This document shows, piece by piece, positions 5,608 through 13,150 of a stretch of 40,386 nucleotides of DNA. Both the position numbers and the translations under genes were made by a program. The notes under the pieces are model-generated. The model did no database searches. It was not told where the DNA came from and saw nothing but the letters and a program-made list of their open reading frames with translations. Source of the stretch: Bryobacterales bacterium (GTDB taxonomy: Bacteria > Acidobacteriota > Terriglobia > Bryobacterales > Bryobacteraceae); contig PLEX01000225.1 of NCBI GenBank assembly GCA_003136575.1, positions 48,952-89,337 on the forward strand. The letters run 5' to 3'. Numbering within the stretch: the stretch's first letter is position 1; each line of letters opens with the position of its first letter.

Positions 5608-8082
5608 TCAGGTCGCCGAACGCGGCCCAGGGTGGAACACGCGCCTGACGAGACGGCTCAAAAAGTTTCCCCGTCGCACGAAGCTCAGTTTTAGCCCGCC
5701 GATGTCTCTCCGTGGCTTCGGAACCGTGAGCGTAATGATGTGGCCTCCCTCGCGGTACGAATCGACAACGCCCCTGAACAAAAACGGCGTCCCCGGCGCG
5801 ACCGAGCCCCTGATTGGATCGGCAAAGCGCAGAATCGCGTCACCGGCGGCATCGTCCACGTTGACGAGCAGTTCCCGCGGCGAAGACTGCGAAACTACAG
5901 TCGCCTGGAACATTGCCGGTCCCCGGTAATCCTGGCCGCGGCGCGGTGGCAACGTTTCGGCCCGAACCTCGTGGAAGTAGTCGTCTCCGCGTTCCGCGAT
6001 GCCCGTCTGAACGCTTTCCCACAAGTCGAGATCGGGACGGGTGTCCCCGCGCAAACGACGAGCGTTCCGCCGCACTTCAGCTACGCTCAACAGATGGAAA
6101 CCCGGCGGAGGAAACATCGAGGCGGACGCCTGGCTCATCAAATCGCTCATTCCTTCGTCACTGCCGTGATACCCCGCGTAAGTGTTCCGCAGAGCGTTTT
6201 CCGCCGGATCCCGGTCCGCGCCGGCAAGCGCGTGGGGGCCGGTCAGGGCGAGCGCCCGCGCGAACTCATAGATAGCCTGAGGGAGGCGAGGGTCTTCCTT
6301 ATTGCCCGAAATCTCCCGCAACAGCGTCACACCAAGCTCGTATGAAGCCGACGCTTGTTCCGGGTCAATCTCAAGCACTTTCCTGAATTCCGATTCAGCC
6401 GTCGCATCGTCTTTCTCCGCTTGCGCGATCCAGGCGAAGACGGAATGAATCTGCAACTGAGACGCCCGCCGGGTTTCCACCCATCGCTCGGGCGGCAGGC
6501 TGTCGGGTTTCACCGAGTCGTCGAAGTAAGCTTCGAAGTCGTTCAGCAATTCCAATCCTGCCTGCTTTCCGGCCTGTAAAACGTCCGCATTGGCTGCGGG
6601 CTTGCCGTAAGCGGCTTCAAGCACGGAGAGCAAAGCCTCAGCCGTCATCAGCGTGCGCTGGTGTCCGAGTTCGGAATTCGGATATTGCCGTTTCCATTCT
6701 CTGAGAAGCGCCAGCTTTCTGGCGGGATCTTTCTCTTTCGCAGCCGACATCCCCAGTTCGGATTCACCCTGATCGATCCACTTTGGTCCCGTCCGGGCTG
6801 ACAGTGGTTGTATCAAAGGCGTGGATGCAATGGCGATTGGCGGCGCAGGGGCAGCCGAAGGCGCGGAAAGCTCAAACGCCACATTGACCTGCTTCGCGCC
6901 GATGTTCAGATCGGGAGCGAATCGCACCGCCGTGGCCGACTCCACTGCGGCGCGCCGCAGTTCCCTCGGTCCGCCAACGGCCTCAGCGCCGCTGACGCGC
7001 CCGAGAGCGTCCACCGTTATTTTCACCGGCACCGTTCCTTCTATTCCTTCGTCCCGGGCCGTCTCGGGATACTCGGGGATTGAGGGCGGCAGCGGTACGG
7101 ACGCTCGCACCGGACCCGAATAGATTGCCGCGCACACCAACGCCAGAAGCAGCGCCATCATGCCAGGCAGCCGCGACGACCGGTAGTCCCCCGCGCTGGC
7201 GCCGACGATGCGGCGTATCCGGTACTCCAGCGGCGCGTCACCCATCCCCAGAGCTCCAAGAACTACCTGCGGCGAACCGATCCGCAATTTCTCCAGCGCC
7301 GTCACCGCCCGCGCGTAGCACATCGCGTCGCCGCAGGTCCTGACTGCAAGATCGTCACAGCAAAGTTCCCGTTCCTGCCGGATTCGGTTTGACACCCACC
7401 ACACCGCAGGATGATAGAAAAGCAGAGTTTCGGCGACGGACTGTGCGATGTTGACGACATCGTCGTAACGCCGCATGTGAGCGATCTCGTGGGCGAGTAT
7501 CGCTTCCAGTTGCTCCGGCGTAAGATTGAGAACGCCGGCTGCAGGCAACAGGATCACGGGGCGCACCCATCCGGCCAGGCCGGGGCCATCGGGAATTGCG
7601 GAGACGAGAACGCGAACTGTCCGCGTCACGCCCATGCGCCGCGCAAGGTCAACTGCGATAGCCGTGATCTGCGGACTTGCGGTACTACCGGATCGGCGCA
7701 AAGAAGACACCCGCACTCCCAGCCAACTCAGCCGCAGCGAGAGGAACACGACACCCAGCACCCAGAACCGCAAGACCCACGGTTGGGAAGCATTCAGCCA
7801 CCGTGTCAAAGAGGAAACAGAACCACTCCAGACGGCCCGGATCGTCAGCGTCACGGCGGCGGGACCTGGCTGGGCGTGCTCAAACGGATCGTACGACGCC
7901 ACCGCGGTGGCGACCGGGAGCAGCGCCATCACAAACAGCGCAACGCAACACACGCCGTAGCGCACCTGAGGAGCGCGATTGCGCAGAACGAACAGAACGG
8001 TCCAGACGATGAGCGAGACGGCGAAACCCTGCCAGACGAACTGGAGGAGTGCCGATGTAATCGCCTGTGCCAGCGGCGTCAT
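5608..8082 (-). CDS. BlaR1-like M56 peptidase with TonB-C and repeat-type sensor domain
   Basis: An 824-residue membrane-bound antirepressor. Residues 1-325 form the M56 unit with transmembrane segments (about 10-33, 42-62, 104-122, 307-325) and the zinc motif HEIAH at 198-202, followed by an E-rich ERELCCDDLAV segment. After the last helix comes a TonB C-terminal-like domain (about 332-405, IPEYPETARDEGIEGTVPVKI), and then some 370 residues of helical-repeat and beta type where BlaR1 would carry its penicillin-binding sensor. That last part is paralogous to the product of the gene at 8496-9892. It overlaps the repressor gene by ATGA, so the two are coupled. In this family, sensing outside leads to protease action on the repressor inside. 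The ligand is unknown. Confidence 0.9.
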   Translation of the reverse strand: MTPLAQAITSALLQFVWQGFAVSLIVWTVLFVLRNRAPQVRYGVCCVALFVMALLPVATAVASYDPFEHAQPGPAAVTLTIRAVWSGSVSSLTRWLNASQPWVLRFWVLGVVFLSLRLSWLGVRVSSLRRSGSTASPQITAIAVDLARRMGVTRTVRVLVSAIPDGPGLAGWVRPVILLPAAGVLNLTPEQLEAILAHEIAHMRRYDDVVNIAQSVAETLLFYHPAVWWVSNRIRQERELCCDDLAVRTCGDAMCYARAVTALEKLRIGSPQVVLGALGMGDAPLEYRIRRIVGASAGDYRSSRLPGMMALLLALVCAAIYSGPVRASVPLPPSIPEYPETARDEGIEGTVPVKITVDALGRVSGAEAVGGPRELRRAAVESATAVRFAPDLNIGAKQVNVAFELSAPSAAPAPPIAIASTPLIQPLSARTGPKWIDQGESELGMSAAKEKDPARKLALLREWKRQYPNSELGHQRTLMTAEALLSVLEAAYGKPAANADVLQAGKQAGLELLNDFEAYFDDSVKPDSLPPERWVETRRASQLQIHSVFAWIAQAEKDDATAESEFRKVLEIDPEQASASYELGVTLLREISGNKEDPRLPQAIYEFARALALTGPHALAGADRDPAENALRNTYAGYHGSDEGMSDLMSQASASMFPPPGFHLLSVAEVRRNARRLRGDTRPDLDLWESVQTGIAERGDDYFHEVRAETLPPRRGQDYRGPAMFQATVVSQSSPRELLVNVDDAAGDAILRFADPIRGSVAPGTPFLFRGVVDSYREGGHIITLTVPKPRRDIGGLKLSFVRRGNFLSRLVRRVFHPGPRSAT

Positions 8083-8465
8083 TTCTTTTCCGCCTCGATC
8101 CGTTCCAGAAGTTTTTCGATTTCCTCCAGAGCCTTCGGAGAAGTTTTCTCGGTCGATAGCGCCTGCATCACCATCGCCCGGGTGGAGCCGCCGAAGGCAC
8201 GCTCGAGCAAATGACGCAGCAACTGGCGCTGTGTGCTGGCCTGCGGGTCGCGGGGGCGATAAATCTGCGGACGGCGCGATTCGTCCCGTTCGACCAATCC
8301 TTTTTCAGTCATGATCTGCATGACTTTGAGCACGTTCGTATAGCCCGTCGGTTTCTCTTCGTTAAGTTTCTTCAGCACTGCGCGCACCGAAAGGGGGCCG
8401 TTCTCCCAGAGGATCCGCAATATCCCGAGTTCCGCTTCCGTTGGGCGAGGCCGTTCCGATTTCAT
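8079..8465 (-). CDS. BlaI/MecI/CopY-family transcriptional repressor
   Basis: The 128-residue protein has the winged-helix start PTEAELGILRILWENGPLSV and the recognition region TGYTNVLKVMQIMTEKGLVERD, as expected for the penicillinase-repressor family, followed by a C-terminal dimerisation helix rich in charge. The family length is about 120-130. Its stop overlaps the start of the M56 gene by four bases. A palindrome ATGACGA-N6-TCGTCAT lies between the -35 and -10 of its own promoter, so it is likely autoregulated and released when the partner M56 protease cleaves it. The predicted transcript starts at the A of ATG, so no ribosome binding site is expected. Confidence 0.93.
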   Translation of the reverse strand: MKSERPRPTEAELGILRILWENGPLSVRAVLKKLNEEKPTGYTNVLKVMQIMTEKGLVERDESRRPQIYRPRDPQASTQRQLLRHLLERAFGGSTRAMVMQALSTEKTSPKALEEIEKLLERIEAEKK

Positions 8466-8471
8466 AGCTTT

Positions 8472-8499
8472 AGTATGACGAGTTTATTCGTCATGTCAA
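8472..8499 (-). promoter_or_regulatory. Promoter and BlaI-type operator of the repressor/M56 operon
   Basis: Read on the minus strand: TTGACA (8499-8494), 16 bases, CATACT (8477-8472), then the ATG at 8465. The spacer and both boxes contain the perfect palindrome ATGACGA-gtttat-TCGTCAT (8475-8494), so a bound repressor would cover the promoter. Seven steps downstream of the -10 is the A of the ATG, which predicts a leaderless mRNA. The -35 box overlaps the stop codon of the upstream gene. Confidence 0.75.
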
Positions 8500-9892
8500 T
8501 GGGGCGTAGTCCCTTTCGACGCGGCTTTTCCCCGCCCTCCGGTTTTTGGCGCTGCGGTCGCGGCGGGCAGGAAGGTAACGCCGTCGGGCAGGCCAACGAT
8601 ATCGGCTCTTGGCTCCTGAACGTTGAGCGTCAGAACGTACGAGGGACTCTTTGTGTACGATTCGACCACCCCTCTGAACCGGATCTCGATTCCGGCGGGA
8701 ACGTCACCTTTGATTTTGTCGTCGAACTGTAGCAGCGCGTCGCCGGCGGCATTGGAGACATTAACGAGAATTTGCTTTGGCGTCGGGACCGATACTACCG
8801 TTCCGCGGAACATCGGGGGGCCTTTGTAAGCGTCTCCCGCGGGAGGCGGGAATGCAACGTCTTTAAGGGACGCATTGAAGAAACCGTCGCCCCGCGTCTC
8901 CACTTCCGCGCGGATCGTTTCCCAGAAATCCAGGTCCGGGTGCTCCAGAGCCCAGGCGGCGTGATCTCTCTGTTTGGCATCGTCGATATCGACGATGCTC
9001 GGAATATGAAATCCATCGGAGGCAGTGCAGACCTTGCTGACTGTTTCAGCAAATCGTCGAGGCCGTCCGGACCGCCATGATAATTCGCGTAGTTGGACTT
9101 CAGGGCCTTGTCCGCCTTCGCCCTGGCGTCGGGTGGGAGCGCATTCGGCCCCTCAACGGAAAGAGACCGGGCAAGTTCGTACAGCGCCTCGGAGTAACGC
9201 ACGAAGTTCTTTGTCTCGAGCATTTCGTGGATGATCAGCGCTCCCCACTGATAAGACGTCGCGGCCTGAGTCGGGTCGATTGCAAGAACCTTTTTGTATT
9301 CGGTCTCCGCCGTCACGGTGTCCTTCTTCAGCGCCGCGGCATAGGCCATCAGCGCGTGCGCCTGCATTTCGGAGGTGGAGCGGATTTTGGTCCACTCGGC
9401 GGGGGACATTTGCGCAAGTTGAGGAAGCGATCTCAGGGAGTCGTCGAAGTACGTGCCGATGCCGTCAATGAGCTGTTGCGCTGCCTTCCTTCCGGCGTCG
9501 AGAACCGGCCCCTCCTGCTTGCCGAACGCCCCGGTTATCAGCCCTGTCAGCGCCTGCGTCGTCATAAAAGTTCGTTGAGCGGCGAGAGCGGTGTTCGGGT
9601 ACTGCTGTTCCCACTTCTTCAGCAGCTCCAGTTTTCTGGCCGGGTCCTGTTCATTGCCGGCGGCCAGGCCGATATCGGATTCTCCCTGATCTTTCCATGT
9701 CGGACCTGGGGCCGTTTGTGCCCATAAAACGGAGTTGAAGCACACGGCGGCCAGTATGCCTGCCATGAGGAACCAAATGGCCGAATGGAGAATCCTCGCC
9801 CATCCGCCGAATGGAACGCAAGGTGCCACGCCGGGAGAGGACGGCGACGCCGCGGCGGAAATCGCACGATGACGATGGTTTTCGTCTTTCAT
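8496..9892 (-). pseudogene. Stand-alone paralogue of the M56 sensor domain, one frameshift
   Basis: From ATG at 9892 the frame encodes an N-terminal hydrophobic anchor or signal (about residues 36-58, ending VLWAQ), then GPTWKDQGESDIGL and a helical-repeat region that aligns along its whole length with the last 370 residues of the neighbouring M56 protein. At about 9019 the homology leaves the frame: SARSALP is followed one frame over by DGFHIPSIVDIDDAK, continuing to a stop at 8496 with MFRGTVVSV, LVNVSNAAGDALLQF and FRGVVESY, all matching the paralogue. One base missing in the CCTCCG run explains it. Corrected length is about 466 residues. It has its own copy of the repressor operator. Either a recent pseudogene or a sequence error. 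Confidence 0.8.
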
Positions 9893-9898
9893 GCTTCC

Positions 9899-9926
9899 AT
9901 TATGACGATATTTTTCGTCATGTCAA
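9899..9926 (-). promoter_or_regulatory. Second BlaI-type promoter-operator
   Basis: On the minus strand: TTGACA (9926-9921), 16 bases, CATAAT (9904-9899), start codon at 9892. The palindrome ATGACGA-tatttt-TCGTCAT (9902-9921) has arms identical to the one at 8475-8494 and the same six-base spacer, in the same place between the promoter boxes. Again the expected first transcribed base is the A of ATG. This ties the stand-alone sensor gene to the repressor at 8079. Confidence 0.78.
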
Positions 9927-10029: not shown

Positions 10030-10731
10030 TTATCCGCCGTCGCTGCGAAAACGGTAGCCGAAGAACGCGTCGGTCGTCAGATAGGTCGGCTTAGCCGGAG
10101 TATCCTCGATCTTCTTTCTTAATTGCCGGACGAACGTGCGCAGATACTCGACCTCGCCGCTGTAATCCGGACCCCAGACCGCGCGAAGAAGATCCTCATG
10201 CCGTACGGGCACGCCCGCGCGGCTCATCAGCAGTTCCAGAACGTCGAATTCCTTTGGCGTGAGGTGACGCTGCGCACCGCTTTTCATCACGCAGCGCCGC
10301 TGGCGGTCGAGCACGACATCTCCTACCACGATCTGCTCCGGCGTATGCGGGACAGTCGTTCTGCCCCGGCGAATCGCGCGGAGCCTGGCGGTCAGCTCCG
10401 GCACAACAAATGGCTTTGTGATGAAATCGTCGGCGCCGGCCTCGAACGCCTCCACCTTGTCGTCTTCGCTGTCGCGTACCGTGACCATCAGAATGCCCGC
10501 GGTCTGCAACTCGCGCCTCAGATCCCTGCACGTCGCGATGCCGCCTTTGCCCGGCATGTTGACGTCAAGCAGTATTGCATCATACGAAGTGCGCCGCGCC
10601 AGTTCGATAGCGTGTTCGCCGGTCGAGGCTTCGTCCGCCCTGTATCCGAGCGCTGTCAGCGTGGCGCCGAGTGCGCGGCGGATACCGGGGTCGTCGTCAA
10701 CGATAAGAACGGAACCGTTGGAACCTGTCAT
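10030..10731 (-). CDS. OmpR/PhoB-family response regulator (KdpE-like)
   Basis: A 233-residue regulator. The receiver domain (about 7-120) has the acidic cluster VDDD at 11-14, phosphoacceptor D56 in ILLDVNMPGKGG, and the lysine of TKPF. The winged-helix output domain (about 135-230) has HLTPKEFDVLELLM and the closing YLTTDAFFGYRF. That KdpE-like ending (GYRF) and the kinase type suggest the Kdp branch. It begins three bases after the histidine kinase stop, as the last gene of a minus-strand operon. No kdpFABC genes are in view, so the target is open. Confidence 0.92.
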   Translation of the reverse strand: MTGSNGSVLIVDDDPGIRRALGATLTALGYRADEASTGEHAIELARRTSYDAILLDVNMPGKGGIATCRDLRRELQTAGILMVTVRDSEDDKVEAFEAGADDFITKPFVVPELTARLRAIRRGRTTVPHTPEQIVVGDVVLDRQRRCVMKSGAQRHLTPKEFDVLELLMSRAGVPVRHEDLLRAVWGPDYSGEVEYLRTFVRQLRKKIEDTPAKPTYLTTDAFFGYRFRSDGG

Positions 10732-10733
10732 AT

Positions 10734-12338
10734 TCAGTCGCCTTCAGATATTGGGCTGCTGCCCGCTGTTTCCAGTGCTCCGGGAATTCCGGGCGGGCTG
10801 AGAGCTCCGTCCTGCATCCCGCCGGACAACGCGGGCAGAGCGAAAAAGAAAGTTGTTCCGGCGTCCGGGTCGCTTGTGGCCCATACGCGCCCGGAGTGCG
10901 CCGCCGCGATCTTGCGAGCGACCGACAGGCCGAGGCCCGTTCCCGCAATCTGCTGAGCGGTACCCGTCGCGCGATAGAACCGCTCAAAAATGCGCTCCAA
11001 CTCCGGTGCCTGAATCGCCGGGCCCTGATTGTTCACGCTCAGCACAATCCCTCCTCGGCCATGTTCGGCACGGATCGCGATCTCCGAAGCGGACGCGGAA
11101 TACTTGATCGCATTGTCTACCAGTTGTGCCAGTGCCATCCCGAGCAACTGTTCGTCGCCCGATACGGCCATTCCTGTTTCAAGGCCCGTGATCCGGATGG
11201 CGTGCCCCTGGGTCCGCCCTTCGAATCCATTAACCACGCGGCGAAGGAGCGCATCGATCCGAAGACTGCGCGGCCTCAGCCGAACCTCTCTTTCATCCAG
11301 CCGCGCCATCACGAGCAACCGGTTGGTGATATCGTCGAGCCGTCCCGCTTCGCTGTCGATCAGCGAGACGAGTTCACCCTGCGCCGGTCCGAGTCCTCCC
11401 ATTTCGAGCAGCCCGGAACTGGCGGTGCGAATTGCCGTCAGGGGTGTCTTCACGTCGTGGGCGAGAGCGTCCAGCACCGCCGTGCGCAGTTGCTCGTTCT
11501 GGCGGGCGGCCTCTGCCCTGTTCTCTTTTTCAAGCGACCGGAAGCGTTCGAGCGCCACAGCGACGAGCGACGCCAGCGCCCCGGCGACCGGCTCGCCGAT
11601 ACGCCCGCCGCAGAGCGCCAGAGCGCCAACCGGGCGCACTCCCATCCGCAGCACGCAGTACCAGGTGTGGTCGGCCTTGTCAAACCAATCCTTCGCCCCG
11701 ATGTAGGTGTGTTTGGCCTTGCGTTCGAGGTCGGCGCCCGTTGACCCCGCCGCTGCGAACCTGGCCGCCTCCGCGTCGTAGACTCCGGCGCTTTCACATT
11801 GGAAGACGCGCACGATCAGGCCCGCCAGTTGAGGGCCGGGGGCCTGTGCACGGTCCATCAGCAGGATCAGGCGGCTGATTTCATACAGGCCTTCCGTCTC
11901 CTCCCGGCGCCGGATAGCCACTTGCGTCTGTTCAGCGGCCCGGCCGGATAAACGGCTGACAACAAGCGCGCAATACTCGAATGTGGCGAGAGCGATCCAG
12001 TTTTGCGGATCGGCCACAACCCAGGTCAGAACGGGCGGCACCAGAAAATAGAGTTGGCAGACGACGGCGAGAATCGAGATCGCGCTTGCCGGCCAAAAGC
12101 CGGATCGTCGCGCGATCAGGACGACTACGGTCAGGTGGAGGAATGCCGCGGTAGTCAGATTCAGGTGGAATCTGTAGCCAACGAAGGTTATGGCGGCAAC
12201 GGCGGCTGTGCCGGAAGCTATCGTCAAAACCATCTGCCGCAACGTTCGCAAGTCGGGCCGCTCCGACTCCGCCGCCGGAGACCCTGCCGACCGGCTGGCT
12301 GCCGGTAGATCTTCCGCGGTCGTGACCATCAGTGCCAT
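10734..12338 (-). CDS. Sensor histidine kinase with DUF4118 membrane domain (KdpD-like, lacking the UspA part)
   Basis: A 534-residue kinase. A DUF4118-type four-helix membrane bundle lies at about residues 35-130 (for example FHLNLTTAAFLHLTVVVLIA, with the FLVPPV turn). A GAF-like region follows at about 165-265. The HisKA box ALAHDVKTPLTAIR has H294. The HATPase domain has QLVDNAIKYS, an FERFYR block and GTGLGLSVARKI. This matches the C-terminal half of KdpD; the N-terminal KdpD and UspA-like domains are missing, as in many shortened relatives. It sits between two KdpE-like regulators in one operon (17 and 2 bases between genes). Signal unknown; K+ or osmotic stress is only an analogy. Confidence 0.92.
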   Translation of the reverse strand: MALMVTTAEDLPAASRSAGSPAAESERPDLRTLRQMVLTIASGTAAVAAITFVGYRFHLNLTTAAFLHLTVVVLIARRSGFWPASAISILAVVCQLYFLVPPVLTWVVADPQNWIALATFEYCALVVSRLSGRAAEQTQVAIRRREETEGLYEISRLILLMDRAQAPGPQLAGLIVRVFQCESAGVYDAEAARFAAAGSTGADLERKAKHTYIGAKDWFDKADHTWYCVLRMGVRPVGALALCGGRIGEPVAGALASLVAVALERFRSLEKENRAEAARQNEQLRTAVLDALAHDVKTPLTAIRTASSGLLEMGGLGPAQGELVSLIDSEAGRLDDITNRLLVMARLDEREVRLRPRSLRIDALLRRVVNGFEGRTQGHAIRITGLETGMAVSGDEQLLGMALAQLVDNAIKYSASASEIAIRAEHGRGGIVLSVNNQGPAIQAPELERIFERFYRATGTAQQIAGTGLGLSVARKIAAAHSGRVWATSDPDAGTTFFFALPALSGGMQDGALSPPGIPGALETAGSSPISEGD

Positions 12339-12355
12339 AGCTTACTTGCCCGTAT

Positions 12356-13150
12356 TCATGTACAAACGCGCGTGTCCGCCGGGGCGCACGGCTGTCGGTC
12401 GAGCGAGACGGAGTCCGCGAACCGGTAACCGACGTGACTATCGGTCAGCAGATACTTCGGTTCGGTGGGATTATCCTCCAGCTTTTTTCGGAGCTGGCGG
12501 ATAAACGTTCTCAGATACTCGTTCCGGCTGGCATATTCCTGCCCCCAGACCGTTGTCAGAAGCCGCGCATGATTGACGGGCGACCCGGCGTGAGCCATCA
12601 GATAGTGAAGAAGATCGAACTCTTTCGGCGTGAGGAGCACAATCGCTCCCGCCTTCTCCACATAACGGCGGGCGGGGTCCAGTACGATTTCACCGATGCG
12701 GATGCGCGGCTCATGATCGGCTGCCGGTGTCTGCACGCGGCGAACGGCCGCGCGTATCCGGGCAGTCAACTCCCGCATGTGAAACGGCTTGACGACATAG
12801 TCGTCCGCTCCGGCGTCCAGCGCGCCCACCTGGTCGTCCTGAGTGCTTCTGACCGAGAGCATCAGAATCGCGAGACGCGGGAAGAGCTGCCGTAGATCCC
12901 TGCATACGTTGACGCCGTCTTTCCCCGGCATATTGATATCGAGCAGGACCGCATCGAATCTTACTGCGCGCGCGAGCGATAGCGCCTCGGTGCCGGAGCA
13001 AGCCTCGGTTATATCGAAGCCCTGAGCGTACAGCGTCATATGAAGGGCGCGCCGGATCGAATAGTCGTCATCCACGATAAGAATGCGGCCGGCGGATTGG
13101 GGCTCTTCGGCCGGTATGCCGTAAGGCGCCGATTCCCGCTCACTCGTCAT
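12356..13150 (-). CDS. OmpR/PhoB-family response regulator (KdpE-like), first gene of the operon
   Basis: A 264-residue regulator with GGAG seven bases before its ATG. The receiver has VDDD at 26-29, phosphoacceptor D71 in LLDINMPGKDG and K in VKPF. The output domain has LLTPKEFDLLHYLM and ends LLTDSHVGYRF, followed by about 20 extra residues. It is clearly a paralogue of the regulator at 10030 (shared LLDxNMPGK, NEYLRTFIRQLRKKLED versus VEYLRTFVRQLRKKIED). Two regulators around one kinase suggest a branched output or competition for phosphate. Confidence 0.92.
   Translation of the reverse strand: MTSERESAPYGIPAEEPQSAGRILIVDDDYSIRRALHMTLYAQGFDITEACSGTEALSLARAVRFDAVLLDINMPGKDGVNVCRDLRQLFPRLAILMLSVRSTQDDQVGALDAGADDYVVKPFHMRELTARIRAAVRRVQTPAADHEPRIRIGEIVLDPARRYVEKAGAIVLLTPKEFDLLHYLMAHAGSPVNHARLLTTVWGQEYASRNEYLRTFIRQLRKKLEDNPTEPKYLLTDSHVGYRFADSVSLDRQPCAPADTRVCT

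Follow-up and report, generated by a model that had tools for sequence, protein, structure and literature searches.

BlaI-M56 systems are understood chiefly as beta-lactam switches. In Staphylococcus aureus, the repressor BlaI is cleaved directly by the receptor BlaR1, whose sensor is a relative of the class D beta-lactamases (PMC9834060, excerpt). The operator core of BlaI and MecI is given as TACA/TGTA, and the CopR/CopY copper repressors carry C-terminal Cys-X-Cys motifs (PMC7253601, excerpt). One of the BlaI regulons of Clostridium thermocellum contains a hypothetical protein that is suspected to be a response gene (PMC8457756, excerpt).

The locus described here lies in a window of 40,386 nucleotides, the whole stretch of DNA that was analysed, from a Bryobacterales genome. 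It consists of three tandem genes on the minus strand, in the order stand-alone TPR gene, blaI and M56 gene, the last of which encodes a C-terminal TPR part (Table 1); this tandem cluster was found in 4 of 19 genomes of the genus, those of related acidobacteria from soil. The cluster resembles the bla and mec systems (blaZ-blaR1-blaI and mecA-mecR1-mecI) in pairing a BlaI-family repressor with an M56 receptor that has an outer domain, in using one operator type for autoregulation, in clustering the regulated product with its regulators, and in a sensor that is kin to proteins of the same business, there the class D beta-lactamases (PMC9834060, excerpt). It differs from them in having no penicillin-binding or beta-lactamase domain, in that sensor and product belong to one protein family with 44-48% identity, and in an operator core other than TACA/TGTA; further, its genes are tandem on one strand in all four genomes, whereas bla and mec form a divergon (PMC9834060, excerpt). 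The regulons of C. thermocellum share with it a small number of operons per BlaI, autoregulation and inverted-repeat operators, but their motifs are GTCTAT/GACTAT, and kinship between sensor and product is not described in the excerpted text of PMC8457756. Bla and mec, whose products act on the same drug as their sensor relatives, are the nearest design; in the TPR cluster, sensor and product are directly akin. A published description of the TPR-blaI-M56 layout was not recognised among the matches listed, in a literature search that covered few subscription journals. One match, PMC12578637, was set aside as irrelevant, since 'M56' is a catalogue number in the excerpted text.

Table 1. Coordinates of the features of the TPR-blaI-M56 cluster within the window.
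Feature	Position	Strand	Remarks
M56 protease-receptor gene, 824 aa	5608..8082	-	PF05569 94 bits; PF03544 (TonB_C) 35.7 bits
M56 C-terminal part, residues 432-797, homologous to stand-alone TPR gene	5692..6789	-	BLASTP
blaI, 128-aa repressor	8079..8465	-	PF03965 84.9 bits, cut-off 22.6
blaI promoter with operator O2 (palindrome 8475-8494)	8474..8499	-	exact in genome-wide and family-wide searches
blaI promoter elements	-35 TTGACA 8499-8494; -10 CATACT 8477-8472; ATG start 8465	-	
Stand-alone TPR gene, second piece, other frame, OB-like beta domain	8496..8903	-	model mean pLDDT 75
Stand-alone TPR gene, first piece, 365-aa ORF	8795..9892	-	hydrophobic N-terminal segment 34-52; off family frame near end
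O1b, third operator-like site, 1 mismatch	9869..9888	-	33 bp from O1; overlaps first TPR-gene codons
TPR-gene promoter with operator O1 (palindrome 9902-9921)	9901..9926	-	exact in genome-wide and family-wide searches
TPR-gene promoter elements	-35 TTGACA 9926-9921; -10 CATAAT 9904-9899; ATG start 9892	-	

The blaI product contains the Penicillinase_R domain (PF03965) that marks the BlaI/MecI family, and its residues 9-123 matched the S. aureus BlaI chain 1sd4_A (E 3.1e-5). Its score with TIGR02698, 33.9 bits, was under the cut-off of 121.95. The C-terminal Cys-X-Cys trait of CopR/CopY was absent, and the blaI product is devoid of cysteine altogether.

The M56 protein is composed of four hydrophobic segments, an HEIAH motif, a TonB_C domain, a TPR part and an OB-like part. 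By hydrophobicity plot, the segments were located at about residues 8-26, 46-64, 103-121 and 307-325, and HEIAH falls between segments three and four. Hydrophobic segments with HExxH between the third and fourth are the BlaR1 arrangement, and the part of the M56 protein beyond residue 325 should lie outside the membrane. BLASTP alignment revealed 44% identity between M56 residues 432-662 and the first TPR ORF and 48% identity between residues 698-797 and the second. The blaR1_generic model gave 64.2 bits against a cut-off of 400, and Pfam detected no penicillin-binding domain in the window M56 protein or in P0118-P0120. By analogy, the M56 receptor is therefore considered to work like BlaR1 outside the penicillin-sensing family. 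The M56 protein of genome G007 (691 aa) and P0121 (694 aa) both have a short C-terminal end.

No Pfam or NCBIfam family was found for the two TPR ORFs of the window or for the homologue P0002, and none in NCBIfam for P0067. Precomputed Pfam annotation listed entries for P0067, P0103 and P0115, which we take to be TPR types, and TonB_C for P0097. Further, a profile of the TPR family matched designed consensus TPR proteins (best 3.7e-19). The predicted model of P0002 (mean pLDDT 87) placed helices at residues 36-306 and a beta domain at residues 328-409, and the window beta piece modelled by itself displayed a weak likeness to OB folds.

An earlier, sequence-only reading of this DNA had reported two 20-bp palindromes, ATGACGA-N6-TCGTCAT, with identical arms and spacing, each lying between a TTGACA and a CATANT element. 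Both observations were confirmed at the positions in Table 1: each exact site is framed by TTGACA, a 16-bp spacer and CATA[A/C]T, and the ATG follows 6 nt past the -10 element. With the usual distance from a -10 element to the first RNA base, both promoters are predicted to give leaderless transcripts. Three features had been overlooked in that reading, namely O1b, the frameshift in the TPR gene, and the co-orientation of all three genes with a 30-bp gap between the TPR stop (8496) and the blaI start. The -35 element of the blaI promoter overlaps the stop codon (8498-8496) of the preceding frame, the end of the TPR gene. Since the TPR stop lies in the blaI -35 and leaves no space for a terminator, the three genes probably form a single operon that contains an internal promoter; blaI and the M56 gene overlap by 4 bp. 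G001 (L053) has a site like O1b at equal spacing, and no site with this spacing was found in G007 and G012. O1b, about three helical turns from O1, might accommodate a second repressor dimer. At window positions 10030-13150, the ORF translations suggested by eye two response-regulator-like genes (10030-10731 and 12356-13150) flanking a histidine-kinase-like gene (10734-12338).

A whole-genome scan for the palindrome, proposed in the sequence-only reading, demonstrated that the element is not scattered: across the 6.6-Mb genome only the two promoter copies in the window cluster were exact. With up to two mismatches, 48 sites were detected in this genome versus 4 for a reversed control pattern; loose matches are therefore ordinary background in its DNA. 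The three one-mismatch sites outside the cluster and the strays in G001 (C28) and G027 were all within long open frames (5/5), a position that is weak evidence, the DNA being GC-rich.

The search was extended to relatives, with the window's own genome included in both counts. Among the 19 genus genomes, TTGACATGACGA-N6-TCGTCATA at up to two mismatches matched 9 sites, comprising both promoters in G000, G001, G007 and G012 (six of these sites exact and two one mismatch away) and a single stray with two mismatches in G001. These four are the genus genomes whose M56 matches include a protein with both M56 and TPR parts. Thus, an operator-promoter was present at both genes in 4/4 genomes with a fused M56 protein, versus 0/15 of the remaining genus genomes, all without one, at the same mismatch limit. 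Among 237 family genomes, TTGACNTGACGA-N6-TCGTCANA at up to one mismatch matched 10 sites: eight exact matches, all at the TPR-gene and blaI promoters of the four clusters, one at a paralogous blaI promoter in G001 (C52, L093), and one in G027. The paired-gene co-occurrence that the earlier reading had suggested looking for was likewise found, the cluster with both operators being present in 4 of the 19 genus genomes and missing from 15.

The eight promoters, among them the O1-type elements that precede the TPR genes of G001, G007 and G012, share an identical TCGTCAT arm, a -35 element identical save for one position, and an agreeing -10 element. The other arm is ATGACGA in six and TTGACGA in two, those of blaI in G001 and G012, and the N6 and upstream flank differ. 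No match to the TTGAC-operator was found at the start of any unlinked TPR gene in the four genomes; looser ACGA-N6-TCGT matches lay 550 bp (L056) and 458 bp (L058) upstream of two of these genes. In each of L056, L057 and L058 (G007, G012 and G001, respectively), the unlinked TPR gene is followed by a small zinc-ribbon-like gene, FmdB-type by eye, and this pairing is conserved. The proposal that one operator type serves two promoters, those of blaI-M56 and of a sensor-like gene, is supported in four species, and the predicted co-regulation of both promoters by BlaI is well supported by these comparisons.

We propose, with a probability of about 55%, that BlaI represses the TPR and blaI promoters via the palindromes until the M56 protein cleaves it, and that the TPR isoform is the inducible output of the circuit. 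In this model, BlaI would bind both palindromes, each of which reaches from the -35 to the -10 element of its promoter. The TPR/OB-like part of the M56 protein, held outside, would meet the signal, perhaps something that touches the ordinary envelope TPR protein, upon which BlaI would be cut by the M56 protease, allowing large amounts of the TPR isoform to be made. In this view, the sensor would be a tethered substitute for a protein of which an inducible isoform is produced as the output, much as MecR1 and BlaR1 relate to mecA and blaZ. The TPR product may also dampen the signal.

The sequence-only reading had described the stand-alone gene as a copy of the sensor; the phylogeny suggests the reverse relation, in which the sensor looks derived. 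A homologue of the stand-alone protein was detected in 58/61 genomes (own included), a distribution much wider than that of the fused M56 proteins. The seven M56-fused domains formed a single clade within the TPR family (100/98) in a tree of 51 TPR parts whose root was placed on eight distant members, and they likewise grouped together in an earlier FastTree of 122 sequences (0.93). Since the fused domains nest in a family that is much more widespread than the fused M56 proteins, it is most likely that the sensor domain of the receptor came from the exported TPR family. The fused clade joins unlinked members, such as that of G007, with a support (89/76, not starred) that leaves either unlinked or linked proteins as the source. 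The linked TPR genes occupied two positions in the tree, those of the window and G007 together (100/100) and those of G001 and G012 inside a 100/99 clade, and the fused domain of the window grouped with those of G012 and G001 (100/98). The linked TPR gene may have been swapped while the operator stayed, or all linked TPR genes may have one origin (35/95).

These findings bear on a rival explanation, suggested in the sequence-only reading, that is possible, though unlikely, in which the BlaI-controlled stand-alone protein is a feedback decoy that competes for the M56 ligand, or binds the outer part of the M56 protein, and so ends the response. Such a role would be consistent with the shared operator, with the TPR and OB-like parts common to both proteins, and with their predicted location in the same compartment: by hydrophobicity plot, the window, G007 and G012 TPR proteins each have a hydrophobic N-terminal segment (none passed the threshold in that of G001), and the stand-alone protein is predicted to be secreted. 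However, the TPR family predates the receptor and is much more widely distributed, which argues that it has a job independent of the receptor, and the window lineage has no intact TPR protein, yet its receptor is intact. Because of the age and breadth of the family, we lean toward the TPR protein as an output rather than a decoy.

The stand-alone TPR gene of the window is divided by a frameshift into the two ORFs listed in Table 1. In P0001, a homologue on a 1752-bp contig that is one residue off the window ORF, the end is broken identically, and because a second contig shows it, the break is probably real and not an assembly slip. The reading frame is intact in P0014 (87% identical) and in the copies of G001 (446 aa), G007 (437 aa) and G012 (423 aa). 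P0006 leaves the family sequence directly after the TPR part, a truncation unlike that of the window. No sign of programmed frameshifting was seen by eye in the stand-alone TPR gene. Unusual divergence of the broken part was not observed: the C/N ratio was about 1.85 for the window and P0014, versus 0.58-2.1 in 12 other pairs. No sign of relaxed selection on the broken part was seen, and since this part diverges no more than usual, the break is judged to be recent or tolerated. As the gene is broken in the window lineage and truncated in P0006, the TPR output is taken to be dispensable, at least in part.

The same broken and truncated frames would be expected if the TPR gene were a passenger, transcribed by position only and with an irrelevant product, its operator being kept for read-through into blaI. 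The co-orientation of the three genes and the 30 bp from the TPR stop to the blaI start are also compatible with this explanation. We regard it as improbable: the TPR gene is intact in G001, G007, G012 and P0014, the divergence of the broken part is ordinary, and blaI owns an operator-promoter, which makes read-through unnecessary.

Other BlaI-M56 loci of the same acidobacteria were compared with the TPR cluster. The window's genome contains 15 BlaI genes, 13 of which are directly followed by an HExxH-bearing frame. These loci are likewise blaI-M56 pairs, with differing C-terminal parts; they differ from the TPR cluster in having no second operator at another gene's promoter. Among the 69 BlaI genes in 66 regions, a non-random sample chosen mostly from G000, G001, G007 and G012 among the matches listed, only the four TPR loci had the operator repeated at the promoter of another gene. 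A further palindrome copy was present in the region for 9/69 BlaI genes, including those of the four TPR loci. The extra copies of L106, L116, L130 and L143 were confined to the blaI promoter, L094 had one at -49 and, in addition, chance-like matches at positions +1635 and -2746, and L054 had one chance-like match. Related blaI genes carried ACGA/TCGT-type elements at a like promoter position (L093, L094, L095 and L099), which, together with the presence of the operator in 4/4 genomes with the cluster and 0/15 without it, makes it very improbable that the palindromes bind another regulator or arose by chance and that BlaI controls neither promoter, despite the departure of the arms from the TACA/TGTA core. 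A match between the recognition helix and the operator was considered and dropped, since the residue concerned differs in L094 despite nearly the same arms.

By eye, an M56 receptor adjoining a stand-alone homologue of its C-terminus looked like a general rule; the pattern was clear for two types only, and the rule was rejected. A census of 84 M56 proteins in 64 regions, with the count based on the 82 proteins, from 63 loci, whose C-terminus was usable, identified a neighbour matching the M56 C-terminus in 21/63 loci, versus 11.3 expected from swapped neighbours, and 0 of 20,000 shuffles were as high. By type, assigned by a rough scripted rule under which one locus may fall under two types, self-matches were found in 4/4 TPR-type loci (expected 0.3), 2/2 of the CarboxypepD_reg type (0.1), 3/13 of the TonB type (0.9), 13/29 of the TIGR03435 type (10.3, near chance) and 1/20 of other types (0.8). 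L094 and L110 were missed by the census filter; L094 does have an M56 gene.

The CarboxypepD_reg-type loci resemble the TPR cluster in having a homologous gene, here directly downstream, in 2/2 cases (L093 and L130). L093 (G001:C52, 4719-9133) is a blaI-M56 operon with the operator TTGACGA-N6-TCGTCAA. Its M56 protein of 934 aa has CarboxypepD_reg-type domains at its end; these domains recur in a 537-aa protein whose gene comes next and overlaps the M56 gene by 4 bp. L130 (G007) contains a similar M56 gene with a CarboxypepD_reg-type partner directly downstream. As the operator of the paralogous blaI of L093 is almost identical to that of the TPR cluster, the two loci may engage in cross-talk in G001. 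Among the TIGR03435-like loci, L119 (G000:C109, 5367-10572) has a single blaI followed by three tandem M56 genes with TIGR03435-like ends, and the blaI-M56 locus L111 (G000:C96) is flanked on both sides by rows of stand-alone TIGR03435-like genes.

With only two marked promoters in each genome, the operator links a receptor to a member of the protein family to which its sensor belongs. More broadly, and tentatively, the TPR cluster may represent a target-capture receptor, in which a BlaI-M56 system takes the domain of an envelope protein as bait while BlaI keeps an inducible isoform of that protein ready. If this is true, the cluster would be a mec-like replacement circuit whose target is unrelated to penicillin. 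The signal should follow once the binding partner of the TPR protein is found. The arrangement suggests that receptors of this kind may acquire new specificities through fusion with a domain from an already exported protein.
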